A stretch of 64,000 nt of DNA from Rufibacter ruber (GTDB lineage Bacteria > Bacteroidota > Bacteroidia > Cytophagales > Hymenobacteraceae): contig NZ_LRMM01000001.1 of NCBI RefSeq assembly GCF_001647275.1, positions 62,001-126,000 of the forward strand, given 5' to 3'. Position 1 is the first letter of the stretch. Each line of letters starts with the position of its first letter. This document shows positions 1,451 through 62,830 of this stretch, piece by piece. Both the position numbers and the translations under genes were made by a program. The notes under the pieces were generated by a model that did not search any database, had not been told where the DNA came from, and worked only from the letters and a program-made list of their open reading frames with translations.

Positions 1451-1492
1451 GCGTTTTTAGGCTGTTTTCCGGAAAACAGCCTAAAAAAACGC
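1451..1492. repeat. Palindromic element, copy 1
   Basis: The outer arms are GCGTTTTTAGGCTG and CAGCCTAAAAAAACGC around a TTTTCCGGAAAA core. It is one of 36 full copies in this window. Confidence 0.85.
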
Positions 1493-1673
1493 AAAAGCGG
1501 TGTTCCTTCTCCATAGGGAGAAGGGTAGGATGAGGGAGAGGCGGTTCAAGTAGTAAGGGCTACGGCTACTGGCGCAGACCCTGGCAGGTCTGGGAGACAC
1601 TGCGAAGTCTTGTGAGCGCGCTAGACAGCAGAGGCAAAAGCAACGGGGGCTACCTTCCCCCGGAGGGGGATCT

Positions 1674-1710
1674 CTGTTTTTTGCCTGTTTTTCTGAAAAC
1701 AGCAAAAAGC
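1674..1710. repeat. Palindromic element, copy 2 (degenerate)
   Basis: CTGTTTTTTGCCTG is paired with a shortened right arm, CAGCAAAAAGC. The right arm has lost the GCC segment. Confidence 0.7.
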
Positions 1711-1806
1711 GGCGCTAGGCGGTGAAAGCCGGTTTTTTAGAGGGAAAACAGAAAACCGCGCCCACCTCTTTCCGTTAGAAAGAACTCACCGTTAATAATT
1801 TACACA

Positions 1807-2607
1807 ATGGCAGCTACTTCAAATTACGCACTCATCACGGGCGGAACCGTGGGCATTGGCTATGAGTTGGCCAATATCTTCGCCCAGAACGGGTACCACC
1901 TCATCTTGGTGGCCCGAGACCAAACCGAACTGGACCAGCGCGCGGCAGAGTTCCGGCAGAAGCACGGCGTGGAGGTGGTCACCCTGGCCAAGGACCTGTT
2001 CCAGCGGCAGGCGCCCTTTGAGGTCTATGACGAGGTAAAGGCGAAAGGTCTGCCGGTAGAGGTGCTGGTGAACAACGCCGGGCAAGGCCAGTACGGCGAG
2101 TTTGTAGACACTGACATCAACCGCGAGCTGGACATTGTGCAGCTGAACATTGGTGCCTACATCACCCTCACCAAACTCTACCTCCAAGAAATGGTGGCCC
2201 GCAACAGCGGAAAAATCCTGATGGTGTCTTCTATTGGGGGCGAGCTGCCGGGGCCGTTGCAGGCGGTGTACCACGCCACCAAAGCCTTTGTCTCTACTTT
2301 CACAGAAGCCCTGCAGAACGAAGTGAAAGATACCAACATCACCATCACCAAGCTGCTGCCCGGCCCTACTGAGACAGATTTCTTCCGCAAGGCAGACATG
2401 GAGAACGCCAAGATGATCAAAGAAGGCGACTTGGCAGATGCCGCCAAAGTAGCCCAAGATGGTTATGACGCCCTCATGGCGGGTAAGCTGGAAATCATTT
2501 CAGGTTTCAAGAACAAAGCCATGGTGGCCGCCAGCAAAGTCATGCCAGACAGCCTGGTAGCCGAAGCCATGCACCAACAAGCCAAACCCAGCGACGAAGG
2601 CAAGTAA
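1807..2607 (+). CDS. Short-chain dehydrogenase/reductase (classical SDR)
   Basis: A 266-residue Rossmann-fold oxidoreductase. The cofactor loop TGGTVGIG is at residues about 11-18, NNAG at about 88-91, and the catalytic YHATK at about 154-158 with a Ser in MVSSIGG upstream. The basic residue after strand 2 (LVARD) suggests NADP(H). It resembles the DltE/YqjQ-like SDR group; the substrate cannot be read from sequence. It is a single gene followed 29 bp later by a palindromic terminator, with long repeat-rich gaps on both sides. Confidence 0.9.
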   Translation: MAATSNYALITGGTVGIGYELANIFAQNGYHLILVARDQTELDQRAAEFRQKHGVEVVTLAKDLFQRQAPFEVYDEVKAKGLPVEVLVNNAGQGQYGEFVDTDINRELDIVQLNIGAYITLTKLYLQEMVARNSGKILMVSSIGGELPGPLQAVYHATKAFVSTFTEALQNEVKDTNITITKLLPGPTETDFFRKADMENAKMIKEGDLADAAKVAQDGYDALMAGKLEIISGFKNKAMVAASKVMPDSLVAEAMHQQAKPSDEGK

Positions 2608-2635
2608 GCCTTTAGATCAACCCCAAACTACCAAT

Positions 2636-2675
2636 CCGTTTTTGGCCTGTTTTAAGAAAAACAGACCGAAAACGG
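2636..2675. repeat. Palindromic element, copy 3
   Basis: CCGTTTTTGGCCTG pairs with CAGACCGAAAACGG 29 bp past the SDR stop codon. It is the likely terminator of that gene. Confidence 0.85.
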
Positions 2676-2767
2676 ATTTATTTTCATCTAAAGTTTCTTG
2701 CCAGAAGCTTCACCGTCTTTTCACCAATGGTGCAGCGATATGAATACAAACCACACCTCCTTTTCGT

Positions 2768-3199: not shown

Positions 3200-3230
3200 A
3201 AAAACACCAGCAAAACCAGCTGGTGTTTTT
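3200..3230. terminator. Intrinsic terminator hairpin, bidirectional
   Basis: Twelve-base perfect arms (AAAAACACCAGC and GCTGGTGTTTTT) flank a 7-base loop. The A-run and T-run on the two sides make it usable from both strands. It lies between the SDR gene and the minus-strand reductase gene. Confidence 0.8.
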
Positions 3231-3262
3231 GGGCTGCTTTCTTGAAAACGGCTCTAAAACAG
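3225..3262. repeat. Palindromic element, copy 4 (degenerate)
   Basis: GTTTTTGGGCTGC pairs imperfectly with ACGGCTCTAAAAC. It is fused to the right arm of the terminator just before it. Confidence 0.55.
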
Positions 3263-3296
3263 AAAGAAGAGCGCCTGTAAACGTCTGGGAGAAAGG

Positions 3297-3833: not shown

Positions 3834-3939
3834 TGGTTTGGGGATTATGTGTAGGGGACAGATACCGGGCAAAGGTAAAAAGTTGCACCACCTAGCCAAA
3901 AAGACAGAACCGCCCTGGCTACCAGGTACCCGTTAGATA

Positions 3940-3983
3940 GCTGTTTTGGCGGTATTTTCTGAAAAACAGGCCAAAAACGCAGC
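3940..3983. repeat. Palindromic element, copy 5
   Basis: CTGTTTTGGCGGTATTTT has a mutated left arm against the canonical right arm AAAAACAGGCCAAAAAC. It lies between divergently transcribed genes, one of few copies not placed at a gene's 3' end. Confidence 0.7.
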
Positions 3984-4979: not shown

Positions 4980-5007
4980 TCTGCCCCGCCAGAAACGGCA
5001 CGGCCTC

Positions 5008-5047
5008 CTGTTTTGGGCCTGTTTTCCCAAAAACAGGCCCAAAACAG
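5008..5047. repeat. Palindromic element, copy 6
   Basis: CTGTTTTGGGCCTG pairs with CAGGCCCAAAACAG 29 bp past the metallopeptidase stop codon. It is the likely terminator. The remainder of the 4980-5349 gap shows no other structure. Confidence 0.85.
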
Positions 5048-5349
5048 AAAAGATATCACCTGCTTCGCCGGGGGCTACTTGATTAGGTGCCAGATTTTCA
5101 TGTATTTGAAACCAATAGTGAAGAAGTACCAGGGCAGAAATCCCTTCACCAGTTTTGTCATCCTGGCAAGGTCTTTTGGCCAAACCGGTACAGCGCCTGT
5201 TTTCCCGCTCCTGCCGTTCGCAACCAGGGTCCTTCAGGGTGACAATACCAAAGCAGAGCAAAGTAATTCTGCCCCCATATTTAGCTGTATACTGATTACA
5301 TCATCCTCACAAGGAATACCAGATTCTATTATACCAAACCCGCCTTCGC

Positions 5350-6525: not shown

Positions 6526-6606
6526 GCAGGCGCTTTCTGGGATACGGCAAACCGCAGAGGCAATGCCGCCGCCTGTCTTAGGGTCTGGCTGGTGTGTTCC
6601 CAACAG

Positions 6607-6646
6607 CTGTTTTGGGGCTGTTTTCCCAAAAACAGGCCCAAAACAG
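6607..6646. repeat. Palindromic element, copy 7
   Basis: CTGTTTTGGGGCTG pairs with CAGGCCCAAAACAG between convergent genes, 82 bp past one stop and 20 bp past the other. It is a likely bidirectional terminator. Confidence 0.85.
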
Positions 6647-6665
6647 AAAAACCCAGAAGAAGGCC

Positions 6666-8060: not shown

Positions 8061-8409
8061 GGTTTTAAAGGTAAAAGCTGGTGGTTGATGAGGCAAAATA
8101 TTGAAAAAAACGCAGTAGGTGGTAGCTGTTTTCGCATTAATCTCCCTTGGAGGCCTGCATTTTGAACCGGGGGCGGGGCCAAAGAGACACCCGGCAGGGG
8201 CTGCTGTCCCCCTTGTTTGGTCAAGGGGCGAGGCCGGGGAGCCATGGTGGCAAGGGGCCAAACCTGTGAGAGCACAGCGGCAGTTTGCAACCGTAATCTG
8301 TTCTGCTTGGCTTGCGGTCCTTCCCCGTTCTGGTGCAGATGCTTTGTGCCTCAGCGGGAAATGCCGGAAGGAGAGACGTTTCATCCCTCCCCCTCCGCAA
8401 GAGCAATGT
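8061..8409. other. Intergenic region upstream of the MATE gene, no gene seen
   Basis: Frames exist on both strands but none has recognisable composition or homology. The sequence is GC-rich and carries no long repeat apart from the palindrome at 8410-8449. A minus-strand TACCTTTA just before the MATE start resembles a weak -7 box. Confidence 0.5.
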
Positions 8410-8449
8410 CTGGTTTCGGCCTGCTTTTAGAAAAACAGGTCAAAAACGG
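8410..8449. repeat. Palindromic element, copy 8
   Basis: CTGGTTTCGGCCTGC pairs with CAGGTCAAAAACGG, with two mismatches. It lies 43 bp past the stop of the VOC-family gene. Confidence 0.75.
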
Positions 8450-8492
8450 CAGGCGCTGAAAATCTATTGGTGCTACTCCAGTGCAACCGGGG

Positions 8493-9542: not shown

Positions 9543-10051
9543 CTTGGAGAGGGCACAGTGGGTAGAACTGATCCAGCAAAGCAGGAGAACTGCTATAAAT
9601 GTAAACAACCCTCAGCAGAATGACGGTAAAATTTTCAGTGAAAGGTTTCCACGGAGCCGTAGTGGGGGGGAGAAGTTTTACACAAGAAGAAGCTTATTTT
9701 TCCTGCTGTTCCGGGTTTATCAGTGGTACATCTCTCTGTACAGACTTTTTACGGGCCAACAGCAGGGGGCGGCAAAAGCGGCAGACGTCATCACCTGCCT
9801 CTGTTTTTGGGCTGTTTTCAGAAAAACAGGCCGAAAACAGCTTTTGTAGAAGGTCTCCTCTGCCCCGGTGTAAAGCCGGAGCTTACAGGCTGGCGCAGGG
9901 GGCTTATCACGTGGGCGGCAGAACACTTCCTGCGGTTTGGCAGTACTATTGAACAGGAAAAGACGGCGCGGGGAACAGGAGAGGATAGCAACGGCTGCCC
10001 GTTCAGCTGCCCGCCGCCTGCTTTTCTGAGGTGACTTCTAAACGAGCAGGC
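9543..10051. other. Intergenic region between divergent genes, no gene
   Basis: This 509-bp stretch holds one palindromic element (9801-9840). No conserved reading frame or clear promoter was seen for the GH15 gene. Confidence 0.5.
9801..9840. repeat. Palindromic element, copy 9
   Basis: CTGTTTTTGGGCTG pairs with CAGGCCGAAAACAG. It lies between divergently oriented genes. Confidence 0.82.
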
Positions 10052-12772: not shown

Positions 12773-12804
12773 CTTCTTCTTAATTTTTGGTATGAATACG
12801 AATG

Positions 12805-12841
12805 CTGTTTTGCTGTTTTCCTGAAAACAGGCCGAAAACAG
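12805..12841. repeat. Palindromic element, copy 10
   Basis: CTGTTTTGCTG (shortened left arm) pairs with CAGGCCGAAAACAG. It lies between convergent genes. No further copy occurs until 19750. Confidence 0.75.
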
Positions 12842-12869
12842 GAATTGATGTAAAGCCGGGCGCTTGCTG

Positions 12870-19712: not shown

Positions 19713-19749
19713 AATGGAAGATAGGTGATTTCCGGGGGAATTTCATGTT

Positions 19750-19790
19750 GCGTTTTTCGGGCTGTTTTCTGAAAAACAGCCCGAAAACAG
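19750..19790. repeat. Palindromic element, copy 11
   Basis: GCGTTTTTCGGGCTG pairs with CAGCCCGAAAACAG. It is the first copy after the 6.9-kb copy-free stretch. Confidence 0.85.
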
Positions 19791-19839
19791 GAAATTCTGT
19801 TTTATAACTGCGCGTATCACTGAGATATTTTACGCATTC

Positions 19840-20110: not shown

Positions 20111-20345
20111 CCCGCTAGGGTTCTCTCTCTGGCGCGAAAGGTACGTCTGTGACTCACCGTTTTAAGATAAGCCAGTCATGGGCGTAATTTACGCGCCCTA
20201 GAGAGCCGCCCTTTTGATCTGAAAGTGCCGCGGCGGATTGCAAAGCCGGGGGTATTCTAGCCCGGGCTTATAAATCCCGTACAGCCGGTGAACTGCAAAT
20301 CCTGAACAGCCGGGATACGAACTGCCGAACAAACTGCCCGTGTTT

Positions 20346-20385
20346 CCGTTTTGGGCCTGTTTTCAAGAAAACAGCCCTAAAACAC
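20346..20385. repeat. Palindromic element, copy 12
   Basis: CCGTTTTGGGCCTG pairs with CAGCCCTAAAACAC with mismatches. It ends 5 bp before the 3' end of the Atu4866-like gene. Confidence 0.75.
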
Positions 20386-20389
20386 AAAA

Positions 20390-20638: not shown

Positions 20639-20825
20639 CTGTGCTGTCTGTGATGGGCGAAGGTTGTCTGGTCTTCGCCGTTTTCATTAGTTAGAATGAA
20701 CAGGGCAAATGTAGGGGCAGGGGAGGCGGTGCCGTTTGCGTCTTCCAAACCATTGCTTGCAAAATTCAAACAATACGGGGCGTATCAGCAACTGGGGCCA
20801 GGTCAGAGGGCGAGCTGGGGGAAAT

Positions 20826-20867
20826 TGCGTTTCTGGCCTGTTTTTCAGAAAACAGGCCAGAAACGCA
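20826..20867. repeat. Palindromic element, copy 13
   Basis: TGCGTTTCTGGCCTG pairs perfectly with CAGGCCAGAAACGCA. It lies 43 bp past the stop of the YhcH-family gene. Confidence 0.87.
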
Positions 20868-20909
20868 GCCAGTAGTAAACGTTCAGGAAAAGGTTGGCTG
20901 CCGTGGCTG

Positions 20910-21362: not shown

Positions 21363-21479
21363 GGTTTTCTGGTTGAAGGGATACTTTCAAGGTGACTAAC
21401 TGAATCTCCCGGTTGAACATCTTCCTTGGGTACGGCTTGTAAGTTGCAAGAATTTATGCCAAGTGTCAACTTAGAAAAG

Positions 21480-21519
21480 CTGTTTTGGGGCTGTTTTCAC
21501 AAAAACAGCCCCAAAACAG
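21480..21519. repeat. Palindromic element, copy 14
   Basis: CTGTTTTGGGGCTG pairs perfectly with CAGCCCCAAAACAG. It lies 18 bp past the stop of the aspartic protease gene. Confidence 0.87.
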
Positions 21520-21537
21520 GAGTAGCATGAAGTAGAG

Positions 21538-24516: not shown

Positions 24517-24595
24517 GCAGTTCCTTTCCCAAGTATTAGAAGCCAGGCTTGGCTTTCTTTCACAAGATACCGAAACTACCTCACCGCCCCAAAAC

Positions 24596-24633
24596 AAAAG
24601 GAGCCCTGAAATTTCCATTTCCGGGCTCCTTTT
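24596..24633. terminator. Terminator hairpin fused to half a palindromic element
   Basis: AAAAGGAGCCC and GGGCTCCTTTT (11-bp arms) enclose a partly paired AAAT...ATTT loop. It lies between the DUF1016 gene and the FG-GAP gene, near the 5' side of the former. A near-identical hairpin occurs at 27689-27726. Confidence 0.65.
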
Positions 24634-24653
24634 TCAAAAACAGGTCAAAAACG
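24633..24653. repeat. Half palindromic element (right arm only)
   Basis: CAAAAACAGGTCAAAAACGC directly follows the terminator hairpin and matches the right arm of the family. The left arm is replaced by that hairpin. Confidence 0.7.
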
Positions 24654-24824
24654 CCAATGCCTCACAGTGCTTTGTCATTCTTAATTCCTAATTGGAGCAT
24701 AGCTACCCTAACGCCATCTCCTTATCAAAGGAAACAGGGAGAGGTAAGTGTTCTTGGGCTGAGCAATTATTCAAAAAGAATTCAAGGAGCTGGTGCGCCT
24801 CAACTCCTTAAAACGGAGCAGATG

Positions 24825-27499: not shown

Positions 27500-27688
27500 A
27501 TATAACTTTAAATAAAAATACGGTGGTGCTTAACTTAATCAAAGTTAATGGATTACATGTATGGTAGATGCTGAAAGTAAGAAGATTTTTATTAGGAAAC
27601 AGAGCCAGAAGAGCCTTGGGTTGCACAAGTAAATGAAGTAGACGCTTAAGGCTGCTACTTCATTTACTTGGTTATTTAAACCTAAACC

Positions 27689-27726
27689 AAAAGGAGCCCG
27701 GAAATTTCTATTTCCGGGCTCCTTTT
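27689..27726 (-). terminator. Terminator of the pnt operon, fused to half a palindromic element
   Basis: Seventeen-base perfect arms (AAAAGGAGCCCGGAAAT and its complement) around a TTCT loop lie about 80 bp past the pntB stop codon. The same composite occurs at 24596-24653. Confidence 0.8.
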
Positions 27727-27748
27727 CCAAAAACAGGTCAAAAACAGC
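27726..27748. repeat. Half palindromic element (right arm only)
   Basis: CAAAAACAGGTCAAAAACAG follows the terminator stem, as at 24633-24653. Confidence 0.7.
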
Positions 27749-27805
27749 TTTGGTCTGCCACGCCTTGTGTTGCACGGCAAGACCCATTCCTACTTCCCCA
27801 TGAAC

Positions 27806-30932: not shown

Positions 30933-31050
30933 AGTAAGGGGCAGAATTACCCCATAAATGCCACAAAGTCAAGGAAGTTCTTAAATATTAGTATAAGCTA
31001 ATGTTTGGTAGGGAAAGGCGGCAGGGCAGGTAGTAAGGAGAGTGGGAAAG

Positions 31051-31090: not shown

Positions 31091-31141
31091 GTCTTGGGGT
31101 TCAGGGGCTTTAACCAGCCGAAAGCCCGGGAGGGCCAGGTT

Positions 31142-34000: not shown

Positions 34001-34021
34001 GGTTGTTTGCATTTTAGGAAA

Positions 34022-34062
34022 CCTGTTTTTGGCTTGTTTTTCAGAAAACAGGTCAGAAACGG
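34022..34062. repeat. Palindromic element, copy 17
   Basis: CCTGTTTTTGGCTTG pairs with CAGGTCAGAAACGG imperfectly. It lies 21 bp past the GH3 stop codon as the likely terminator. Confidence 0.78.
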
Positions 34063-34634: not shown

Positions 34635-35071
34635 CCTTCTAACTCCAGCTGATACTCCCGCTTGCGCGAGTCCCCAGACGCGTGCCTACTGATGACGGGC
34701 GGTCTCAGCCTGCCCTCGCGGCGCGGCTGCGAAACCAGGCATTGCTGCTTCATTCGTATTGAATTGCCTAAAGAAAAAAGGAAGGACTCAAGACTCAGGA
34801 CTCAGAACTCACTCTGATGCTCCCCCTTTGAAGAGGGCGAAGGGGGAGGTTGACACAGGAGGACACACATTGCTGAGGTACGGTCACCCGCCATTTGTCC
34901 TACGCATTCTAGATCAATCCCCTCCCGGGAGGGGTTGGGGTGGGTCTCACGCATGGCAAGTTGTTTCACAACCGAAGCCAAGATCACATGCTTGACTCAG
35001 AACTCAAGACTCAGGAGTTCTACCAGGCCCCGTACCGTCCTGATGAGGCCTGCGGGCGTCTGTGCCCATTT

Positions 35072-35112
35072 CCTGTTTTCGGCCTGTTTTTCTAAAAACA
35101 GCCCCAAAACGG
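35072..35112. repeat. Palindromic element, copy 18
   Basis: CCTGTTTTCGGCCTG pairs with CAGCCCCAAAACGG with mismatches. It is upstream of rocD, not at a gene end. Confidence 0.75.
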
Positions 35113-35254
35113 GTTTCCCTCTGCAGTGGGTTCTAAAGCCGCTTCTGAAATAAAGTGTTTTCGTTACTTTTATCTTGCAAGGCAGAACATCCGTATCTAA
35201 ATAGAAAAGGAGAGTCTTGCCTGATTCTTACACCCACACAAAACTGATCGCTGC

Positions 35255-36496: not shown

Positions 36497-36540
36497 CTTT
36501 TTGCTGCAACCTATTCTCGGCCTTTGGCCATGGCATAATA

Positions 36541-36583
36541 ACCTGTTTTTGGCCTGTTTTGCAGAAAACAGGTCAAAACAGGT
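36541..36583. repeat. Palindromic element, copy 19
   Basis: ACCTGTTTTTGGCCTG pairs with CAGGTCAAAACAGGT. It lies 45 bp past the rocD stop codon. Confidence 0.83.
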
Positions 36584-36884
36584 TATAACTTTTGCTTCAG
36601 GTTGCGTTCAGTTGAACCTCACTTCTTTGGCCAAAGGCCGAAGACAGCTCCCCCTTTCTTAGGGCAAGGGAAGACACCCGCCGCAGCGAAAGACAGAAAT
36701 CCAGTTGCTTTTCTAGCTTATCATTCTGAAAGAATCTTGGGGGCGATCTAGAAAAGCCTCTGCCGTTTGCCACCAAGCTCTCATCAGAAAGGCAGAAGCA
36801 TGCTTAGCAACAGACTTTCCAGAAAATTTGAATTAGGTTTTAAAATATTCAGAATCAGATGATTTTAATTTAAAATGCTGAAAC

Positions 36885-37056: not shown

Positions 37057-37124
37057 GAAAATTCCCAATTTTACGGTAGAAAACTGTTTTGCAAGAAAGA
37101 AGCGGCCCCAAGTGGGGTAGATTT

Positions 37125-37163
37125 CCGTTTCCAGCCTGTTTTTCTGAAAACTGGCCAAAACAG
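37125..37163. repeat. Palindromic element, copy 20
   Basis: CCGTTTCCAGCCTG pairs with CTGGCCAAAACAG with mismatches. It lies just upstream of the hemB promoter. Confidence 0.72.
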
Positions 37164-37165
37164 CC

Positions 37166-37196
37166 TTCGCCTGAATGGGCAGAAACCCTACCTTTG
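37166..37196 (+). promoter_or_regulatory. Promoter of hemB
   Basis: TTCG (37166-37169, one change from TTTG) is followed after 19 nt by a perfect TACCTTTG (37189-37196). The spacing matches the Bacteroidota consensus. The leader would be about 115 nt. Confidence 0.55.
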
Positions 37197-37316: not shown

Positions 37317-38297
37317 ATGGATCATTTAACCCGTCGGCCCCGCCGAAACCGTAAATCTGAAGTGATCAGGAACATGGTGCAGGAAAACCATGTGGCCGTA
37401 CATGACCTCATTTTCCCAGTCTTCATGATGGAAGGCACCAACCTGGCCGTTGAGATTGCCTCTATGCCGGGCATTTACCGCTACTCCCCAGACCGTTTAC
37501 TGGAAGAAATTGCCCAATGCGTAGACCTGGGCATTAAAACCTTTGCGCCGTTCCCGCAGATTGACGAAAGCAAGAAAGACCGCTTCGCGTCTGAAAGCAA
37601 GAACCCAGAGGGGCTTTACCTGCGCACCATTGCTGAGATCAAGCGCAATTTCCCAGACGTGGTCCTGATGACTGATGTGGCCATGGACCCGTACAGCTCA
37701 GATGGCCATGACGGCATTGTAGACAACGGTGAGATTCTCAATGACGCTACGCTGGAAGTGCTAGGCCAGATGGCGTTGGCCCAGGCCCAGGCCGGTGCCG
37801 ATATCATTGGCCCCTCAGACATGATGGACGGCCGGGTGGCCCACATCCGTCAGGTCCTGGACAGCCACGCGTTCACCAACGTCTCCATCATGAGTTACAC
37901 CGCCAAGTACGCCAGCGGTTTCTACGGTCCGTTCAGAGACGCCCTGGGCTCAGCGCCCAAGCACGGCGACAAGAAAACCTACCAGATGAACCCCGCCAAC
38001 AGCCGCGAAGCCTTGATTGAGGCAGAACTGGACATCGCCGAGGGCGCTGACTTCCTGATGGTAAAACCCGCCCTGGCGTACCTGGACGTGATTAAACTTC
38101 TGAAAGACAACACTAACCTGCCCGTGGCTGCCTACAACATCAGCGGCGAGTACGCCATGGTAAAAGCCGCCGCGCAGAACGGCTGGCTAGACGGTGAGAA
38201 GATCATGCTGGAAGTGCTATTGAGCATGAAACGCGCCGGTGCTGATATTATTCTCACGTACTTTGCCAAAGAATTTGCGCAGTACATGAAAAAGTAG
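37317..38297 (+). CDS. hemB: Porphobilinogen synthase (delta-aminolevulinic acid dehydratase)
   Basis: The ATG at 37317 (MDHLTRRPRRNRKSEVIRNM) gives 326 residues, the family length. It has LIFPVFMMEGTN, TDVAMDPYSSDGHDGIV (the metal-site region with Asp/His in place of the zinc Cys triad), the first active-site Lys in SYTAKYASGFYGPFRDA and the Schiff-base Lys in FLMVKPALAYLD. It condenses two 5-aminolevulinates to porphobilinogen in tetrapyrrole synthesis. The Cys-poor metal site suggests a Mg2+-dependent form. hemJ and hemN lie 5-8 kb downstream, but not in one operon. Confidence 0.95.
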   Translation: MDHLTRRPRRNRKSEVIRNMVQENHVAVHDLIFPVFMMEGTNLAVEIASMPGIYRYSPDRLLEEIAQCVDLGIKTFAPFPQIDESKKDRFASESKNPEGLYLRTIAEIKRNFPDVVLMTDVAMDPYSSDGHDGIVDNGEILNDATLEVLGQMALAQAQAGADIIGPSDMMDGRVAHIRQVLDSHAFTNVSIMSYTAKYASGFYGPFRDALGSAPKHGDKKTYQMNPANSREALIEAELDIAEGADFLMVKPALAYLDVIKLLKDNTNLPVAAYNISGEYAMVKAAAQNGWLDGEKIMLEVLLSMKRAGADIILTYFAKEFAQYMKK

Positions 38298-38298
38298 G

Positions 38299-38339
38299 CC
38301 TGTTTTTGACCTGTTTTCTGAAAAACAGGTCAAAAACAG
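38299..38339. repeat. Palindromic element, copy 21
   Basis: CCTGTTTTTGACCTG pairs with CAGGTCAAAAACAG, starting one base after the hemB stop codon. It overlaps the next terminator stem by three bases. Confidence 0.87.
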
Positions 38340-38380
38340 AAACAGGAAAGGGAGCCCACGGGCTCCCTTTCCTGTTTCTG
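38337..38380. terminator. Strong bidirectional terminator between hemB and the BNR-type gene
   Basis: Perfect 20-bp arms (CAGAAACAGGAAAGGGAGCC and its complement) surround a CACG loop, located 14 bp from the minus-strand gene's stop codon. It is stacked behind a palindromic element, giving two stems for the convergent pair. Confidence 0.8.
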
Positions 38381-42944: not shown

Positions 42945-43571
42945 ATGCGTTCTCTCCATACCTTTTGCCTTCTGGTCTGCCTGGTGGTATCCCCCCTGGC
43001 GCAGGCGCAGGGCCAGCCAACCCCTGAACAACCGGCCAAAGCTGACCGGCCCAAGAACAGCCGGTTTGCCCCAGACTATGTGGTACTCCAGCACGCGGGT
43101 CTCATAGGCTTGCTTTCTGCAGGGCTGGGCTATGACTTTGGGCGCCATGACAGAACCAACGTAGAGCTGCTGTACGGCTTCACCCCGGGGTATGACATTA
43201 AGCACACCAACCACACCTTCACCACTAAAATCTACTACCAGTCACACCCCAAGCCGCTGTTCAGGGACTACAAAATCAGCTGGATCAAGGTTGGGGCGGG
43301 CATCAGCATGACCATTGGGGAGCAGTTTGAGACCTTCTTCCCTAAGAAATACCCTAACGGCTACTACCTCTGGCCCACCGCCACCAGGCTGCTTCCGTTC
43401 ATTGGTTCGGCCATTGGCAGGGAGTTCAAAGGCAACAAGCGCCCCCTGTACGGGGAGTTCTACGGCGAGCTGGGCACCAGTGACGTCATGATCATTGACA
43501 AGTACCGCAATGAGGGAATTGCCGTGACAGACATTCTCAACCTGGCCGTGGGGCTTAGGCTGAAACTCTAG
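42945..43571 (+). CDS. Secreted/outer-membrane protein of unknown function
   Basis: A 208-residue protein. It has a signal peptide (MRSLHTFCLLVCLVVSPLAQAQ). The mature part has alternating strands (LIGLLSAGLGYDFGRHDRTNVELLYGF, abridged) and ends with LNLAVGLRLKL, a pattern typical of small outer-membrane beta-barrels in Bacteroidota. No family was recognised. It starts 5 bp after the metallophosphoesterase stop codon, so the two probably work at the same envelope site. Confidence 0.8.
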   Translation: MRSLHTFCLLVCLVVSPLAQAQGQPTPEQPAKADRPKNSRFAPDYVVLQHAGLIGLLSAGLGYDFGRHDRTNVELLYGFTPGYDIKHTNHTFTTKIYYQSHPKPLFRDYKISWIKVGAGISMTIGEQFETFFPKKYPNGYYLWPTATRLLPFIGSAIGREFKGNKRPLYGEFYGELGTSDVMIIDKYRNEGIAVTDILNLAVGLRLKL

Positions 43572-43572
43572 C

Positions 43573-43611
43573 CTGTTTTGGGGCTGTTTTTCTGAAAACA
43601 GCCCCAAAACG
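43573..43611. repeat. Palindromic element, copy 22
   Basis: CTGTTTTGGGGCTG pairs with CAGCCCCAAAACG, starting 2 bp after the preceding stop codon. Confidence 0.86.
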
Positions 43612-43705
43612 CCTGCCACAAAGGGGCCGCTAGGTTTCTTACCCACAATCAGCCATTTTTGCGGCGGGAACCTGAACAGGCTCCCCCTTCACTATTTCTG
43701 CACCT

Positions 43706-44233: not shown

Positions 44234-44413
44234 GAGCCCCGCGGGAGGAAAAACTCTCCGCCCCAACTCCGCCCCCCACATAGCCTGGCCTTCTGTACAC
44301 CAAAAGGTTTCTACAAGACGCCCCGGTCAGGTGGCCCCCACCGGAGCCATGTTATTCAAATATTTCATATCATCTGGTATTAAAATATATCTTACTCTTT
44401 GGCAGGGGGTGAG

Positions 44414-44452
44414 GCGTTTTTCGCTGTTTTTGGGAAAACAGGCCGAAAACAG
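44414..44452. repeat. Palindromic element, copy 23
   Basis: GCGTTTTTCGCTG (short left arm) pairs with CAGGCCGAAAACAG between the convergent hemJ and hemN genes, 5 bp from the hemN stop. It is a likely terminator. Confidence 0.78.
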
Positions 44453-44456
44453 CAGA

Positions 44457-45854: not shown

Positions 45855-45969
45855 GGTGCAAAGATGGGGCAAGGCGGCCGCCCAAATTGATAGGCCGCGT
45901 CATGGAGGGGCATGATCTTCATCAGTTTTGCAGATTGTTGCTCCCCGTATGTATGGCGGAAGCCTTTAA

Positions 45970-46011
45970 TGCGTTTTGGCGCTGTTTTTCTGAAAACAGG
46001 CCGAAAACAGG
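45970..46011. repeat. Palindromic element, copy 24
   Basis: TGCGTTTTGGCGCTG pairs with CAGGCCGAAAACAGG with mismatches. It lies upstream of hemN. Confidence 0.77.
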
Positions 46012-46174
46012 CGTTCCCCAGGTGGCGATTTGTTCGAGCGGAGCTAAAAAAGAAATGACCCCAGAAGGGCCACCTCAAACAACCATTAAACAAAATCTTA
46101 CAGGTATTCACTGCTCAAAAGCCGCTGTTCCCTTTTTATACTTTTATATAGAAGACACCGTCATCGTGATCAAA

Positions 46175-46622: not shown

Positions 46623-46661
46623 CTGTCCGGTTCTGCACAAATTTTGTACAGAACCGGACAG
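46623..46661 (-). terminator. Terminator hairpin downstream of the GroES-like gene
   Basis: Thirteen-base arms (CTGTCCGGTTCTG and CAGAACCGGACAG) extend inward through ACAAA/TTTGT to nearly a full palindrome. A palindromic element follows immediately at 46664. Confidence 0.65.
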
Positions 46662-46663
46662 TT

Positions 46664-46703
46664 CTGTTTTTGGCCAGTTTTTTGAAAAACAGGCCAAAAA
46701 CGC
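46664..46703. repeat. Palindromic element, copy 25
   Basis: CTGTTTTTGGCCAG pairs with CAGGCCAAAAACGC with one mismatch. It lies 57 bp past the GroES-like gene's stop codon. Confidence 0.83.
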
Positions 46704-46759
46704 ACAGGTACTGCTAGGGGTACACCAACCGCACCTGCTCTAAACGGGGCGTAGCGGGC

Positions 46760-47366: not shown

Positions 47367-47441
47367 TGGTGATAATCATAGTGGAAGTTTATAAACTCCC
47401 GTCTCCCATAATACATAAAAGTCCTTCTTCCCGAGAGACTT

Positions 47442-47480
47442 CCGTTTTCGGCCTGTTTTTCCAAAAACAGGCCGAAAACG
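47442..47480. repeat. Palindromic element, copy 26
   Basis: CCGTTTTCGGCCTG pairs perfectly with CAGGCCGAAAACG. It directly abuts the hmgA stop codon. Confidence 0.87.
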
Positions 47481-48680
47481 CTAATCCATCATATCTGCGG
47501 GCCTGGGCGCAGCCGGAGCCACGTCTGGGTTCCAGCTCATGGGGTAGTTCTGGTCCAGGAACTCCAGGGCCTCTACGGTCAGGTACAGCGGCTTGAACGT
47601 GTCAATCATCACGGCCAGCTCGTGGGTTTCTTTCTTGCCGATGCTGGCCTCTACGGTGCCGGGGTGCGGACCGTGCGGCAGGCCACTGGGGTGAATGGTG
47701 AACGACCCAATGTCAATGCCTTTCCTGCTCATGAAGTTGCCCGCCACGTAGTACAGAATCTCATCTGAGTCTACATTGGAGTGGTTGTACGGCGCCGGAA
47801 TGGCCTGCGGGTGGTAATCAAACAGCCTGGGCACGAACGAGCACACCACAAAGCCCTGCGTCTCAAAGGTCTGGTGCACGGGCGGTGGCTGGTGAATGCG
47901 GCCGGTAATGGGCTCAAAGTCATGAATAGAGAAGGCGTACGGGTAAAAATAGCCGTCCCAACCTATCACGTCCAGCGGGGAGAAATCATAATAATACTGG
48001 TGCAGGAAACCTTCTTTCTTAATCTGTACCAGATACTCGCCGGGGGCGTTATCTACCAGAATCTCATGCGGCGGCCTGATGTCCCGCTCACAGTACGGGC
48101 TGTGCTCCAGCAGTTGCCCAAAGTGGTTGCGGTAACGGCGCACCGTCTCTACCGGGCTAAAACTCTCGGTGATGAGCAGGCGCACGGGGCCATCATTCCA
48201 CTTCCACTGGTGAATAATGGTGCGCGGGATCACCACGTAATCTCCGGCCTCTACCTCCAGGCGGCCCATCTGCGACAGCAGCTCACCTGAGCCTTCATGA
48301 ATGAACACAATCTCATCTGCCAGGGCATTTTTGTAGAAATAGTCCATTTCGCGCTGGCGCGGAAGGCAGATGGAGATGGTGCAGTCTTTGTTCATCAAAA
48401 CCGTCTTGCGGGCGCTCAGGTAATCCTGGCCGGTACTCTCGTCTTTGAAAGGCCGCAGGTGGTAGGGCGCCAGGGGCACATCTGACTTTACCGGCCCGTA
48501 CGGTACGGGCTCACCAATGCGGGTGATACGGGTGGGCGGGTGGTTGTGGTACAGCAAAGAGGAGACGCCTGAAAAGCCCAGCGTGCCCACCAGCTGCTCA
48601 TGGTACAGGCTGCCGTCTGGTTTCCTGAACTGCGTGTGCCGCTTCTTGGGAATGTTGCCTAGTCTATGATAGTATGCCAT
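47481..48680 (-). CDS. hmgA: Homogentisate 1,2-dioxygenase
   Basis: A 399-residue cupin-type iron enzyme. Its start (MAYYHRLGNIPKKRHTQFRK) and LVGTLGFSGVSSLLYHNHPP are typical of the Bacteroidota HmgA group. The C-terminal Fe(II) ligand region includes NHSNVDSDEILYYVAGNF (Glu/His) and FTIHPSGLPHGPHPGTVE. It opens the ring of homogentisate to maleylacetoacetate in tyrosine/phenylalanine degradation. No other pathway genes adjoin. Confidence 0.92.
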   Translation of the reverse strand: MAYYHRLGNIPKKRHTQFRKPDGSLYHEQLVGTLGFSGVSSLLYHNHPPTRITRIGEPVPYGPVKSDVPLAPYHLRPFKDESTGQDYLSARKTVLMNKDCTISICLPRQREMDYFYKNALADEIVFIHEGSGELLSQMGRLEVEAGDYVVIPRTIIHQWKWNDGPVRLLITESFSPVETVRRYRNHFGQLLEHSPYCERDIRPPHEILVDNAPGEYLVQIKKEGFLHQYYYDFSPLDVIGWDGYFYPYAFSIHDFEPITGRIHQPPPVHQTFETQGFVVCSFVPRLFDYHPQAIPAPYNHSNVDSDEILYYVAGNFMSRKGIDIGSFTIHPSGLPHGPHPGTVEASIGKKETHELAVMIDTFKPLYLTVEALEFLDQNYPMSWNPDVAPAAPRPADMMD

Positions 48681-48748
48681 TTTTTCAATGCGTAAATGCG
48701 TGATGGAGTGAATGAGTGAATAAGGATAATGTGCTGTTTCTTTTAAAG

Positions 48749-48788
48749 CCGTTTCTGGCCTGTTTTTCAGAAATTAACCCGAAAACAG
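48749..48788. repeat. Palindromic element, copy 27 (degenerate)
   Basis: CCGTTTCTGGCCTG pairs poorly with TTAACCCGAAAACAG. The right arm is damaged. Confidence 0.68.
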
Positions 48789-48910
48789 AAGCCTTTGCTT
48801 ATGCTTTGCAGAAGATTTTTCTCTTTTAGACTAAAATACGCCAAATCTCTTAAGGTGGAAAATTCCTCATGTAAGAAATAGGTCACCGCGATTCAGTAAT
48901 ACCATACCTA

Positions 48911-49283: not shown

Positions 49284-49298
49284 GGCTAAGTAGATTCT

Positions 49299-49338
49299 GC
49301 GTTTCCGGCCTGTTTTCATGAAAGTAGCCCGGAAACGC
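49299..49338. repeat. Palindromic element, copy 28
   Basis: GCGTTTCCGGCCTG pairs with AGCCCGGAAACGC. It flanks copy B of the 250-bp repeat, much as copy 3 (2636) flanks copy A. Confidence 0.78.
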
Positions 49339-49394
49339 ACAGCGGATGGAAGAGCTTTACTTGTGAGCCAACTCCTTCTTTATCATTCTTTGCA

Positions 49395-49417: not shown

Positions 49418-49710
49418 ACTTATAACTCAAGCAGATAATTCCCTCCTCTGAGAGGTCGGGGTGGGTTTTACGCATTGCCAATCTTCTCACAGTTCCCAAC
49501 GAGTTTGGACACAGCATAAGTGGCACGAGCTGCAAACTCGCGCCAGCGATCACATAAACCATCAACAATAAACCAGCAGCCATTTCAAAAGACCTCGTAG
49601 CGTGCGCAGCACCTGCGAGCGTCTTTGCCAAAACTTCAACCATTATCACTTCATCTGTCTCGCCCCCTCATCCTAACCTTCTCCCCTGGTGGAGAAGGAA
49701 CACCTTTTTC

Positions 49711-49751
49711 GTGTTTTTGGCCTATTTTCCCAAAAACAGGCCAAAAAACAG
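49711..49751. repeat. Palindromic element, copy 29
   Basis: GTGTTTTTGGCCTA pairs with CAGGCCAAAAAACAG. It lies 70 bp past the S41 protease stop codon, next to a second hairpin. Confidence 0.82.
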
Positions 49752-49779
49752 CGTTCGGCGCGGCCGAAGGATAGAAACA

Positions 49780-53116: not shown

Positions 53117-53173
53117 AGGCCTTTTGTTTAGGTATACCAGAGACACTACCAAATACTTGCTTTCTTACAAGAT

Positions 53174-53213
53174 GCGTTTTTCGCCTGATTTTCACAAACC
53201 AGCGCCAAAACAG
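53174..53213. repeat. Palindromic element, copy 30 (degenerate)
   Basis: GCGTTTTTCGCCTG pairs with CAGCGCCAAAACAG with mismatches. It lies 4 bp past the next gene's stop codon. Confidence 0.72.
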
Positions 53214-53216
53214 TTT

Positions 53217-54182: not shown

Positions 54183-54218
54183 ATACCTGTATACGAAATT
54201 CTTATAAGCGAAGTTCTT

Positions 54219-54257
54219 CCGTTTTCGGCCTGTTTTCCGGAAAACAGGCGAAAACGG
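54219..54257. repeat. Palindromic element, copy 31
   Basis: CCGTTTTCGGCCTG pairs with CAGGCGAAAACGG. It lies between the PepSY gene and the phospholipase-like gene. Confidence 0.83.
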
Positions 54258-54258
54258 A

Positions 54259-54290
54259 AATCGCCTTGGCCGGTACCAGCCAAGGCGATT
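54259..54290 (-). terminator. Terminator of the TonB receptor-PepSY operon
   Basis: Twelve-base arms (AATCGCCTTGGC and its complement) enclose an 8-base loop. It lies 20 bp past the PepSY stop codon and directly beside a palindromic element. Confidence 0.7.
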
Positions 54291-57972: not shown

Positions 57973-58081
57973 TCAGAAGTCTCACCTTAAGCCCCACAGC
58001 AACAAAAACCTCAAATATTTGAAAATCAGCATACTTAATAACAAGATTCAATTTAAGCCTGAACCTGCAGTGGAGGAGTTT

Positions 58082-58119
58082 CTGTTTTCGCTGTTTTGGC
58101 CAAAACAGCCCGAAAACAG
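58082..58119. repeat. Palindromic element, copy 32
   Basis: CTGTTTTCGCTG (short left arm) pairs with CAGCCCGAAAACAG. It lies between divergent genes. Confidence 0.75.
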
Positions 58120-58204
58120 AAAAAGCGCTTTCGCGAACAGAATGAGGTTCTCCTAAGCTTCTTTCAACTGATTTTTATAAGCAGAGGACAACTAGCAGAT
58201 TTTT

Positions 58205-58244
58205 CCGTTTCCGGCCTGTTTTCCGGAAAACAGGCCGGAAACGG
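58205..58244. repeat. Palindromic element, copy 33 (perfect)
   Basis: This is a fully perfect 40-bp palindrome with 20-bp arms and no loop, of the CCGTTTCCGGCCTG type. It is the best example of the family. Confidence 0.9.
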
Positions 58245-58263
58245 AACTCCGCAAGTTTCGGGT

Positions 58264-59752: not shown

Positions 59753-59805
59753 GGATTGTATATAAAATCGTTCCCAAGTTCTTATATCATGGAATTAGAG
59801 TAGTT

Positions 59806-59845
59806 GCGTTTTGGACCTCTTTTCGCCAAAACAGGCTCAAAACGC
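59806..59845. repeat. Palindromic element, copy 34
   Basis: GCGTTTTGGACCTC pairs with CAGGCTCAAAACGC with mismatches. It lies between the convergent GNAT and def genes. Confidence 0.75.
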
Positions 59846-59847
59846 AA

Positions 59848-59880
59848 AAACCTCACAGGTCTTGGAGACCTGTGAGGTTT
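59848..59880. terminator. Bidirectional terminator between the GNAT gene and def
   Basis: Perfect 14-bp arms (AAACCTCACAGGTC and its complement) surround the loop TTGGA, directly after a palindromic element. It lies 27 bp from the def stop codon. Confidence 0.75.
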
Positions 59881-60476: not shown

Positions 60477-60892
60477 AGGTATTGTCTGCTCTCTAAATAA
60501 CTCTGTAAAATAATGGTGGCGCTAATCTTGTCCACGGTTTCTTTGTTGGCGCGGGCTTTCTTGCCCAGCCCCACGTCTATCATTGTCTGAAACGCCATTC
60601 TGGAGGTGAAGCGTTCATCATGGGTCACAACTTTTTTGCCGGGGAACTGTTTCTGCAGCTTCCGCACGAACCCCACCACGTGCTGGGTGTTGTTGGTGTC
60701 GTTCCCGTCCAGGTGCTTGGGCATGCCCACCACAAATTCGTCTACCTCCTCTTTCTGGGTGTAGCTCTGCAAAAACGCCAGCACGTCTTGCGCGTGCACA
60801 GTGTCCAGGGCGCTGGCGATGAGCTGCAGCGGGTCGGTCACGGCCAGCCCCACCCGTTTCACGCCGTAATCAATGGCCATAATTCTACCCAT
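60473..60892 (-). CDS. ruvX: Holliday junction resolvase RuvX (YqgF family)
   Basis: The start at 60892 (MGRIMAIDYGVKRVGLAVTD) gives 139 residues, the family length; a longer frame crosses a palindromic element. It has the RNase H-like core with MAIDYG (catalytic Asp), VVGMPKHLDGNDT and THDERFTSRMA. It acts on DNA or in 16S rRNA processing as described for YqgF. It is cotranscribed with def. Confidence 0.93.
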   Translation of the reverse strand: MGRIMAIDYGVKRVGLAVTDPLQLIASALDTVHAQDVLAFLQSYTQKEEVDEFVVGMPKHLDGNDTNNTQHVVGFVRKLQKQFPGKKVVTHDERFTSRMAFQTMIDVGLGKKARANKETVDKISATIILQSYLESRQYL

Positions 60893-61219
60893 GCGTTTCT
60901 GTTTTTGACCTGTTTTCCGGAAAATAGCCCGAAAACAGCAAGCTAAATAAGTCGACAACTTTCCGTCACCGGGAAAAGGTCTTGGTAGCGAACGGCAGCA
61001 ACAGAAATGTACGGCCTTTCTAGTTTGCCCACAAGTTCCTTTCAGGATGACAAAAGATATTGTACCTCTATTGCCCTTACTTCCAGCTAATCTGCTCCGG
61101 AAGCGGCACAAAGTTAGCGCATTATTCGGGAAACCGCTCTTTTTAGAGGCTACGGCGTTTCACCGCCGAAGACTTTTTTGTACCTTCCCATGAAATTTGA
61201 TGCTCACTTACGCTGCCGT
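60893..61219. other. Intergenic region upstream of ruvX, no gene
   Basis: It holds one palindromic element (60899-60938), which overlaps the 5' leader of ruvX. Minus-strand TAACTTTG at 61116-61109 matches the -7 consensus about 215 nt before ruvX. Nothing else is seen. Confidence 0.45.
60899..60938. repeat. Palindromic element, copy 35
   Basis: CTGTTTTTGACCTG pairs with TAGCCCGAAAACAG with mismatches. It lies in the 5' leader of ruvX, an unusual position for a terminator. Confidence 0.77.
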
Positions 61220-62779
61220 ATGAACGTTTGCCCGTCTTTCCGCCGGTTTTCCTTCTTCGTTTCCCTGCTCTGGATTTGTTCTTTCCACGTTTCGGCCCAG
61301 GCCGATCTGCAGAAACTGGACGCCTATTACCAGAAAGCGCTCAAAGACTGGAATGTTCCCGGCATGGCCATTGCCATTGTGAAAAATGACTCGGTGATTT
61401 TCGCCAAGGGCTACGGCGTGCTGGATGCGCAGAAAGGCGGCGCGGTTGACGCGAACACCGTCTTCGGGATTGCCTCCAACTCCAAAGCCTACACCGCCGC
61501 CGCGCTGGGCATTCTGGTAGACGAAGGCAAACTCAATTGGGATGACCCGGTGACCAAATACCTGCCGTATCTGCAGCTCTACAGCCCGTACGTGACCCAG
61601 CAGCTCAACATCAAAGACCTTTTGAGCCACCGCGCCGGTTTCCAGACTTACTCCGGTGATTTGCTCTGGTACAACACCACCTACACCCGCAAAGAGATTC
61701 TGCAGCGTGCCAAGTACCTGGAGCCCACCTACAGTTTCAGGAGCGGCTACGGCTATTCTAACCTTATGTTCATCGCCGCCGGCGAAGTCATTGAGGCCGT
61801 GTCTGGCAAAACCTGGGAGCAGTTTATTCAAGAACGCTTCTTCGGGCCGCTGGGCATGACCCGTTCGTACACCAGCGTAAACCAATTAAAAGGCGTAACC
61901 AACGTAGCCACACCGCACGCCAATCCGGTGAAGGAAGGCGAAAAACCCGTGCCCACCGTGCTCACCGCCTGGGACAATTGGAACCCCGCCGCCGGTATTT
62001 TCACCAGCGCCCTCCAGCACGCGCAATGGGTACGCCTGCAACTGAACCGCGGCACCTACAAAGGCAAACGCATCTTCTCTGAGGCCGCCAGCCACCAGAT
62101 GTGGACCATGCACAACCCCTTCCCTATTCCGCCCCAGGCCGAAGAAATCAACCCCACCACCCATTTCTCCGGGGCCGGGCTGGGCTGGATGCTCAATGAC
62201 TACGAAGGCCGTAAAATCATTGCCCACGGCGGCGGCCACGAAGGCATGAACAGCCGCACCGTGCTGGTGCCCGAAGAAAAACTGGGCATTGTGATTCTCA
62301 CCAACAGCATGAGCAGCATCATGGCACCCGTAGCCACCTACACCGTTGACCAATTCCTGGGCATCAAAAACGGCCGCGACTGGAGCCAGTTCAACCTGGA
62401 CATGGCCGCCAAGTTCAAAAAGCAACAGGAAGCTACCGCGGCTAAAAAGCCGAAGGAGAAAGCCGCTAAAGCGAAACTGCTGCGCGACCTGAATGACTAC
62501 GTGGGCACCTACCGCAGCCCCTTGTACGGCGACGCCATGATTCGCCTGCAGAACGGTAAACTGGTACTGGATTTGGTGCCGGCCCCAGCACTAGGCGGTG
62601 AATTGTCTCTCTGGAAAGGCGATATCTTTGATTTGGACTGGAAAAATGACTTCGCGCTGTTGACGCCTACGCGGGTGCGGTTTCTGCCGGGGAAAGACGG
62701 TGCTGTGGGCGAGATGCGGCTAGATGCCAACAACCCAGACTTCCATTTTTCTGAGCTGGAGTTTAAGCGGGTAAAGTAG
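61220..62779 (+). CDS. Secreted serine hydrolase (class C beta-lactamase family)
   Basis: The ATG at 61220 (MNVCPSFRRFSFFVSLLWICS) gives a proper signal peptide ending VSAQA and 519 residues; a start at 61178 would put 14 extra residues before it. The beta-lactamase-like domain has the catalytic SxxK in IASNSKAYTAAALG, Y-S-N in GYGYSNLMFIAAG and HGGGHEGMNS as the KTG-equivalent. A C-terminal DUF3471-like domain follows after an Ala/Lys-rich linker (about 415-440). It is probably a periplasmic esterase, D-amino peptidase or carboxypeptidase rather than an antibiotic-resistance enzyme. Confidence 0.9.
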   Translation: MNVCPSFRRFSFFVSLLWICSFHVSAQADLQKLDAYYQKALKDWNVPGMAIAIVKNDSVIFAKGYGVLDAQKGGAVDANTVFGIASNSKAYTAAALGILVDEGKLNWDDPVTKYLPYLQLYSPYVTQQLNIKDLLSHRAGFQTYSGDLLWYNTTYTRKEILQRAKYLEPTYSFRSGYGYSNLMFIAAGEVIEAVSGKTWEQFIQERFFGPLGMTRSYTSVNQLKGVTNVATPHANPVKEGEKPVPTVLTAWDNWNPAAGIFTSALQHAQWVRLQLNRGTYKGKRIFSEAASHQMWTMHNPFPIPPQAEEINPTTHFSGAGLGWMLNDYEGRKIIAHGGGHEGMNSRTVLVPEEKLGIVILTNSMSSIMAPVATYTVDQFLGIKNGRDWSQFNLDMAAKFKKQQEATAAKKPKEKAAKAKLLRDLNDYVGTYRSPLYGDAMIRLQNGKLVLDLVPAPALGGELSLWKGDIFDLDWKNDFALLTPTRVRFLPGKDGAVGEMRLDANNPDFHFSELEFKRVK

Positions 62780-62788
62780 AACCTCCGC

Positions 62789-62830
62789 TGCGTTTTCGGC
62801 CTATTTTTTGAAAAACAGGCGAAAAACGCA
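62789..62830. repeat. Palindromic element, copy 36
   Basis: TGCGTTTTCGGCCTA pairs with CAGGCGAAAAACGCA. It lies 9 bp past the serine hydrolase stop codon. Confidence 0.84.

Follow-up and report, generated by a model that had tools for sequence, protein, structure and literature searches.

A genus-wide palindrome at gene ends in Rufibacter, with species dialects, as a candidate recognition site in double-stranded DNA

A stretch of 64,000 nucleotides of the Rufibacter ruber genome (contig NZ_LRMM01000001.1, positions 62,001 to 126,000; here called the window) was found to carry many copies of a short palindromic element that recurs throughout the genus. We propose, with a probability of roughly 55%, that the copies are genus-wide recognition sites in double-stranded DNA (dsDNA) which mark the ends of transcription units and co-evolve with a putative protein. 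The copy number of the element, its restriction to the genus, its placement, orthology, centre spacing, dialects and constraint, and its lack of an RNA-hairpin signature were observed in the genomes; binding by a protein and a boundary action at transcription-unit ends are what we infer from them. The genome that holds the window (5.50 Mb in 166 contigs) is referred to as G000, and the other G-numbers denote the genomes of relatives. Open reading frames (ORFs) were taken from a hexamer gene caller that overlooks a number of AT-rich genes and places some starts wrongly; of the gap classes, the divergent one is the least reliable.

Results

The element and its copies in the window

When the window was scanned twice, with and without a pairing requirement, 41 candidate places were obtained. 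Among them were 36 clear copies, the same number that an earlier note on this DNA had claimed, and two half copies (at 24612 and 27705), each fused to a terminator. Three candidates were set aside as doubtful: 47214 (7/18 pairs), 52090 (7/18 pairs, within an ORF) and 55455 (overlap with an ORF). A plain palindrome scan of the window picked out 28 places, 24 of them in this family, and none in one Markov-2 resample. The density was 1 copy per 1.8 kb, close to the 1 per 1.7 kb given in the earlier note; in a 544-kb sample of G000 it was 1 per 2.0–2.2 kb. Neither an Rfam search of the window nor a plasmid search with one copy as the query gave a match.

The window copies share the register CNGTTTT-N-GGSCTGTTTT-NNNN-AAAACAGSCC-N-AAAACNG, and the consensus for G000 is approximately TTCYGTTTT-N-GGSCTGTTTT-YNNR-AAAACAGSCC-N-AAAACRGAA. 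The element is 40–46 bp long and has twofold symmetry; the spacing of its four T/A tracts and two GG-N-CTG-like blocks is fixed, the conserved T/A tracts lying about one helical turn apart. For 166 copies picked by the core alone, sequence information ended about 23 bp from the centre, and the outer T/A positions 15 and 16 were 98–100% conserved, independent of the selection. In a matrix pooled from seven genomes, positions 3–5 and 15–16, which had also served to find the copies, were 91–100% T/A. The spacing at the centre was rigid: 633 of 658 copies had exactly 4 nt there, and the centre is usually asymmetric. In five of the seven genomes the two central bases paired less than expected (z −2.4 to −7.5; G012 −0.8, G002 −1.5), as if the dyad were held asymmetric. 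The most frequent 4-nt centre was CCAG/CTGG (52/96 in G009, 37/84 in G012 and 49/107 in G014).

The features of the window are as follows, with the number of paired positions out of 18 and with the strand where one was assigned.

1448..1493, element copy, divergent gap, 16/18
1671..1716, element copy, divergent gap, 11/18
2633..2678, element copy, 26 bp past the stop of an SDR gene, 16/18
3220..3265, element copy in a convergent gap, 32 bp from the stop of a RibD_C gene, 13/18
3938..3983, element copy in a divergent gap whose ortholog in G014 also has a copy, 11/18
5005..5050, element copy, 26 bp past the stop of an M90 peptidase gene, perfect 18/18
6604..6649, element copy, convergent gap, 17 bp from the stop of a MatE gene, 17/18
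8407..8452, element copy, 13/18
9798..9843, element copy, overlapping a hand-added ORF of 110 codons that is probably spurious, 16/18
12799..12844, element copy that follows a terminator (12742-12772), 11/18 when read in this register
19748..19793, element copy, 16/18
20343..20388, element copy, 14/18
20824..20869, perfect element copy, 18/18
21477..21522, perfect element copy, 18/18
24588..24657, right half of an element, fused with a canonical terminator that has an A tract, a GC stem and a T tract
27681..27750, another such fusion of a terminator and a right half element
31048..31093, element copy, divergent gap, 17/18
31140..31185, element copy, divergent gap, 15/18
34020..34065, element copy, 20 bp past the stop of a GH3 gene, 14/18
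35070..35115, element copy, 15/18
36540..36585, element copy, 44 bp past the stop of an aminotransferase gene, 14/18
37122..37167, element copy, 11/18
38297..38342, perfect element copy at the stop codon of hemB, with orthologous copies in 16/16 Rufibacter genomes
38341..38376, minus strand (as scored), separate terminator hairpin beside the hemB element
43570..43615, element copy at a stop codon, with an ortholog in G014, 16/18
44411..44456, element copy, convergent gap, 1 bp from the stop of a radical SAM gene, 12/18
45968..46013, element copy, 13/18
46661..46706, element copy that directly adjoins a terminator (46623-46661), 15/18
47439..47484, element copy at the stop of an HgmA-like gene, 17/18
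48746..48791, element copy, 11/18
49296..49341, element copy, 15/18
49708..49753, element copy, 14/18
53171..53216, element copy at the stop of a phospholipase C-like gene, 11/18
54216..54261, element copy, 13/18
58077..58122, element copy, divergent gap, 12/18
58202..58247, perfect element copy, divergent gap, 18/18
59803..59848, element copy, convergent gap, 15/18
60896..60941, element copy with an ortholog in G014, 14/18
62787..62832, element copy, 8 bp past the stop of the ORF at 61178-62779, 15/18

The copies that the earlier note had placed at the stops of hemB, hmgA (the HgmA-like gene) and the phospholipase C-like gene were all three found there. In the two fusions (24588-24657 and 27681-27750) the T tract of the terminator doubles as the inner T tract of the element.

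Distribution in the genus and species dialects

The earlier note had proposed scanning the whole genome and related genera. When this was done with a dialect-neutral pattern, 254–1984 copies were found in all 16 Rufibacter genomes (1984 in G000), as against 0–2 in 64 genomes of five sister genera of the same family and 0–1 in the reversed control. The strict G000 core, allowing at most three mismatches, had 1685 matches across G000 and none in the reversed control. With these counts and the genus-only distribution, the claim that the palindromes form a repeat family far in excess of independent terminators is upheld.

The strict core also matched in 16/16 genomes of the genus, in numbers from 38 to 1685, a range that is wide because the spelling differs between species; the count for G014 thus rose from 38 to 1803 with the dialect-neutral pattern. 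The dialect spelling is GGGCTCATTT in G014, of the form GTTTTTGGCCTGTTTTC in G009 and G012, and GTTTAGGGGCTGTTTT in G003. A pooled weight matrix gave 0.29–0.75 sites/kb in 16/16 species (20 kb being covered for nine of the 16), with 0 or 1 in the reversed control. It found 14 sites in 21 kb of R. latericius and, even at 10 bits, none in 79 loci (1.43 Mb) of other genera. When copies of orthologous pairs were assigned to dialects by leave-one-out matrix score, both copies fell in their own dialect in 20/20 pairs for G014-G009, 20/20 for G009-G003, 17/17 for G014-G003 and 10/10 for G000-G014. The genome with the fewest pattern matches (254), G015, also has a diverged copy behind hemB (L145); this lineage may be losing the element system, and may hence offer a natural test of the role of the element.

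A DNA uptake sequence (DUS) is a short motif, a 12-mer, commonly found inside genes. Half sites of the Rufibacter element hardly occur alone, and a short single motif commonly within genes was not what we found: 390 of 402 half sites in G000 (at most 2 mismatches; 1 in an ORF) lay inside a palindrome, as did 163/170, 126/130, 105/109 and 137/145 in four other genomes. This argues against uptake or self-recognition sequences driven by biased transformation, the alternative to which we give the least credence. What recalls them is the combination of species dialects and high copy number: passages of PMC3630211 describe, for the DUS of Neisseriaceae, dialects between species, thousands of copies and inverted pairs near terminators, and in one species DUS that form dyads.

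Placement relative to genes

In the 544-kb sample of G000, 239 of the 242 copies were centred outside called ORFs, in agreement with the intergenic location claimed earlier; the controls yielded 5 and 3 places in all. With a more sensitive matrix, 7 of 268 centres in G000 lay within a called ORF. Gap statistics were taken in five genomes, leaving out gaps below 40–60 bp or above 1200 bp. Copies per kb of gap numbered 3.0–3.9 for convergent, 1.7–2.4 for codirectional and 0.2–1.8 for divergent gaps. Among gaps of 60–1200 bp, a copy was present in 78–92% of the convergent (G008: 3/7), 40–58% of the codirectional and 12–50% of the divergent ones.

Codirectional gaps in G000 held a copy in 3/42 cases at 50–99 bp and in 57/81 above 250 bp; the 50–99 bp class was used in place of gaps below 50 bp, in which a 46-bp element trivially cannot fit. 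Of 148 occupied gaps in G000, 108 hold one copy, 36 two and 4 three. No copy was found in a 20-kb stretch with rpoC, fusA, L2, S3, secY and rpoA (a ribosomal-protein operon). The distribution of copies is that expected of transcription-unit ends. It may be added that the copy-free locus L031 (GC 42%) had been considered as a foreign island, an idea dropped when Pfam showed a ribosomal-protein operon.

Such a placement, with a copy in most convergent gaps and with no canonical terminator detected by scan in 46 of the 107 convergent gaps that have a copy, would also suit bidirectional intrinsic terminators, whose transcript hairpin releases RNA polymerase. The earlier note had favoured this reading, and the element does resemble such terminators in being a hairpin-capable sequence between convergent genes. 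However, a U tract (scored as 6 or more T among the 8 nt at the stem end) was seen in just 20 of 482 arms in G000 and in 5–17 of 90–214 arms in five other genomes; it is rare because the T tract of the element lies on the left and the A tract on the right. Separate terminators, moreover, adjoin the element in the same gaps. Summed over five genomes, canonical terminators were not rarer in codirectional gaps with a copy (60/251, against 34/245 without), and occurred in 61/107 convergent gaps with a copy and 13/19 without. Where a codirectional gap held both, the terminator preceded the copy in 55 of 72 pairs, often abutting it.

An RNA stem tolerates G-U and does not tolerate A-C, so selected stems should show an excess of G-U in the sense strand. 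The mismatches in 388 codirectional-gap copies, picked without using pairing, numbered 423 G-U to 439 A-C. Canonical terminators of the same genomes (239, found without favouring G-U) gave 97 to 28. Copies selected for pairing gave 289 to 304, with G008 (34:17) and G009 (47:71) leaning among the five genomes. The ratio was 38:33 in copies followed by a terminator, 99:113 in copies preceded by one and 24:20 at the hemB orthologs (G011 left out for an indel). Of six placement classes, two reached a nominal p of 0.01, in opposite directions. The element thus shows no RNA strand signature, and bidirectional termination by a hairpin, which was not borne out by the rare U tract, the separate terminators or the strand test, appears improbable.

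Pairing within the element

The high symmetry of the copies might instead mean that a DNA hairpin or cruciform is itself functional, with no sequence-specific reading. At position 13 in G000, pairing was held without sequence conservation, and covariation between species was seen at hemB; the figures are given in the Discussion. Against this, a quarter of the cells were mispaired (5221 of 6984 Watson-Crick), particular bases were strongly conserved, and pairing equalled the expectation at most positions in G009, G012 and G002, in copies picked regardless of pairing. We consider a function of the hairpin alone very improbable. The symmetry, with little maintained pairing, the T/A tracts, the fixed centre, the dialects and the lack of a strand preference fit recognition of dsDNA.

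Conservation in place

In 20 of the 21 genome pairs compared, the presence of the element at orthologous codirectional gaps was concordant (p<0.05); G000-G008, with 6 gaps, was the pair that did not reach this level. Positions were retained at 70–77% median protein identity. Behind hemB, the element starts 3–8 bp downstream of the stop codon's first base in 16/16 species (20–53 bits); the palindrome scan at 14/18 pairs or more overlooks diverged copies here, and later scans find one in all 16. A separate hairpin follows the element there in 16/16 species, as judged by eye (the G000 scan scored the minus strand only). Across the genome pairs, the distance from the stop codon was better conserved than in permutations (p<0.05) in 10/20.

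In G009 and G012, whose median protein identity is 90%, 44 single-copy ortholog pairs were 83% identical within 20 bp of the centre, a value raised somewhat, as in the dialect and distance comparisons, by both copies having to pass the scan. Shuffled partners were 76% identical, and 10-bp flank blocks 32–52%. Orthologs of G000-G009 and G000-G012 also resembled each other more than shuffled pairs did (p 0.003 and 0.005, respectively), and those of more distant dialects mostly were not closer than shuffled pairs at 0.05. Eight G009/G012 gaps were scored as discordant in the first scan; the seven that were aligned showed no precise insertion, and two of them held a decayed copy on the 'empty' side.

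Comparison with REP elements and other palindromes

Positions of repetitive extragenic palindromic (REP) sequences and bacterial interspersed mosaic elements (BIME) typically turn over between species. The Rufibacter positions are instead conserved across species, which speaks against a REP/BIME family or a family of miniature inverted-repeat transposable elements (MITE) that was spread by a REP-associated tyrosine transposase (RAYT), selfish and tolerated at gene ends. REP, BIME and REPIN (paired REP) elements (PMC3733652, PMC2817692, PMC6006769) are short extragenic palindromes, often in hundreds of copies and tagged with GTAG or CGTC, and a passage of PMC3733652 names untagged REP-like families for several other bacteria. 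The element is likewise a short extragenic palindrome with more than 100 copies, and its appearance in a single genus suggests an original burst.

No foot tag of the GTAG/CGTC type was found: from 24 bp outwards the left flank held at most 0.05 bit per position, and frequencies in the right flank were flat. Clusters in alternating orientation, a REP/BIME trait, were likewise not found, most occupied G000 gaps (108/148) holding one copy; nor did the aligned discordant gaps show a precise insertion. Hence the REP/BIME-like character put forward in the earlier note stood for size, copy number and placement, and failed for the missing foot tag, the lack of a clear RAYT association, and the conserved orthologous sites with their species dialects.

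The RAYT-type transposase that the same note had proposed looking for elsewhere in the genome was sought through the Y1 Pfam family, which is also matched by IS200-type transposases. Y1 transposase-like genes were present in 15/16 Rufibacter genomes. Yet G012, with no Y1 match, has 1229 copies, and Y1 matched in 33/39 sister-genus genomes although the sister genera lack the element; Y1 genes therefore do not track it. The window's contig in G000 has no Y1 match. The neighbourhoods were examined in 40 regions, which cover 41 of the 45 Y1 matches (three of IS200 length and G007:C1:1046351 were left out). Copies numbered 0.46 per kb within 1 kb of the Y1 loci and 0.26 per kb at 1–2.9 kb, and one locus had five. 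However, 14 of the 40 loci had no copy within 1 kb, and just one had more than two. On this evidence a RAYT-spread family is unlikely, although the element may have a mobile ancestry followed by fixation.

The RAYTs seen in the Rufibacter genomes have motifs of the NH-LIV-H, WQ and YIHQNP type, in common with the subclass 2.6 RAYTs of Bacteroidetes, and the atypical REP-like structures beside the latter, in passages of PMC6006769, share with the element the phylum and the lack of a GT[AG]G tag. The palindrome beside some of the Rufibacter RAYTs is, however, a different one, CGGAAGTNACTTCCG. Two inverted copies of it lie near 4/40 Y1 loci, flanking the gene in three, and it is patchy in the genus, with 0 in two genomes (G009 and G012) and between 1 and 79 strand hits in each of the other 14. 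Written as GGCGCGGAAGTTACTTCCGTGCC, this second family was noticed at 20008, 34619 and 49402 in the window and at L217, L219, L224 and L249, in several of these places as inverted pairs about 44 bp apart. Unlike the main element, this second family (CGGAAGTNACTTCCG/GGCGCGGAAGTTACTTCCGTGCC) is probably a true RAYT-linked REP/REPIN.

In at least six Rufibacter genomes (L140, L141, L147, L149, L152, L153) a RAYT-like gene was noticed at a distance of about 7–10 kb from hemB; it is perhaps a vertically kept, domesticated RAYT. A third repeat consists of palindromes like CCCCCTTTGAAGGGGG (window 3165, 19832, 19962, 29544, 36885 and 37030). In its strict form it was present in samples of G000, G014, G002, G006 and G012 and not in the samples of 11 other relatives.

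Discussion

If the element is a set of recognition sites in dsDNA, its reader would be a dimeric or tetrameric DNA-binding protein on symmetric sites. The site set would have arisen no later than in the last common ancestor of Rufibacter, been largely inherited in place and been held by selection, while the preferred sequence would drift in each species at all sites together, presumably with the reading protein. That one putative protein reads all the sites, with sites and reader shifting their specificity together in each species, is a tentative extension to which we give somewhat less than an even chance. The change of dialect in place could have come about by gene conversion, biased uptake or gradual co-evolution; a gradual change fits the memory that orthologs retain in some pairs better than a wholesale replacement does.

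The placement at gene ends from both sides, often by a terminator, suggests a boundary. This would most likely be a backstop or roadblock to RNA polymerase arriving from either side, and the sites could possibly also organise supercoils or the chromosome, the supercoils between convergent genes being handled there. At hemB the element stands before the hairpin, and blocking beyond the terminator therefore cannot be the whole story.

Several observations weigh against recognition sites of this kind. The hemB copy precedes the hairpin in 16/16 species and so lies inside the likely mRNA, whereas in the codirectional pairs of copy and terminator the terminator came first in 55 of 72. In seven large samples, 3–14% of the sensitive-matrix centres lay in called ORFs (14/99 in G002); caller errors account for some share of these. 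Significant conservation of the stop-codon distance was limited to 10 of the 20 genome pairs. Within G000 there is covariation at position 13 (0.46 against 0.29 expected), and more weakly at positions 10 and 20–22; pairing covariation was also seen in G008, at position 13 and less strongly at other positions, as well as in G003 at the outer positions and, to a weak extent, in G014. The 16 hemB copies covary between species (0.236 against 0.175 shuffled, 1/500 as high), a result that symmetric recognition with dialects and base pairing predict alike and that does not separate them. The sense-strand centre was CAG in 102 cases and CTG in 69, a lean towards strand awareness. Close or loose pairs separate poorly by dialect (14/44 for G009-G012, 5/9 for G008-G002), and the near-invariance of the T/A positions is partly by construction, these having been used to find copies in the 544-kb and matrix scans. 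The reader protein, finally, is a putative one which we infer, and a joint change of dialect at hundreds to 2000 sites would be hard for any binding protein.

A limited search of the literature on palindromes and repeats of Rufibacter, Hymenobacteraceae and Cytophagales, with the supplementary table of PMC6006769 outside its scope, gave no description of the element; as far as its main text goes, PMC6006769 does not name Rufibacter, and its supplementary table may list a Rufibacter repeat. The strand test of G-U against A-C mismatches, with terminators as the control, is a simple discriminator between action at the DNA and the RNA level that can be applied to other extragenic palindromes.

Positions conserved at 70–77% median protein identity, together with flanks that have already diverged in the closest pair examined, indicate that these repeats are maintained and not merely tolerated. 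If the proposal is true, Rufibacter would possess a bacterial boundary system that has dialects and differs from terminators, REPs and uptake sequences alike. The change of dialect in place would then pose the evolutionary question of how as many as two thousand sites can change in step with their reader, for which the related Rufibacter species would offer ready-made comparisons.

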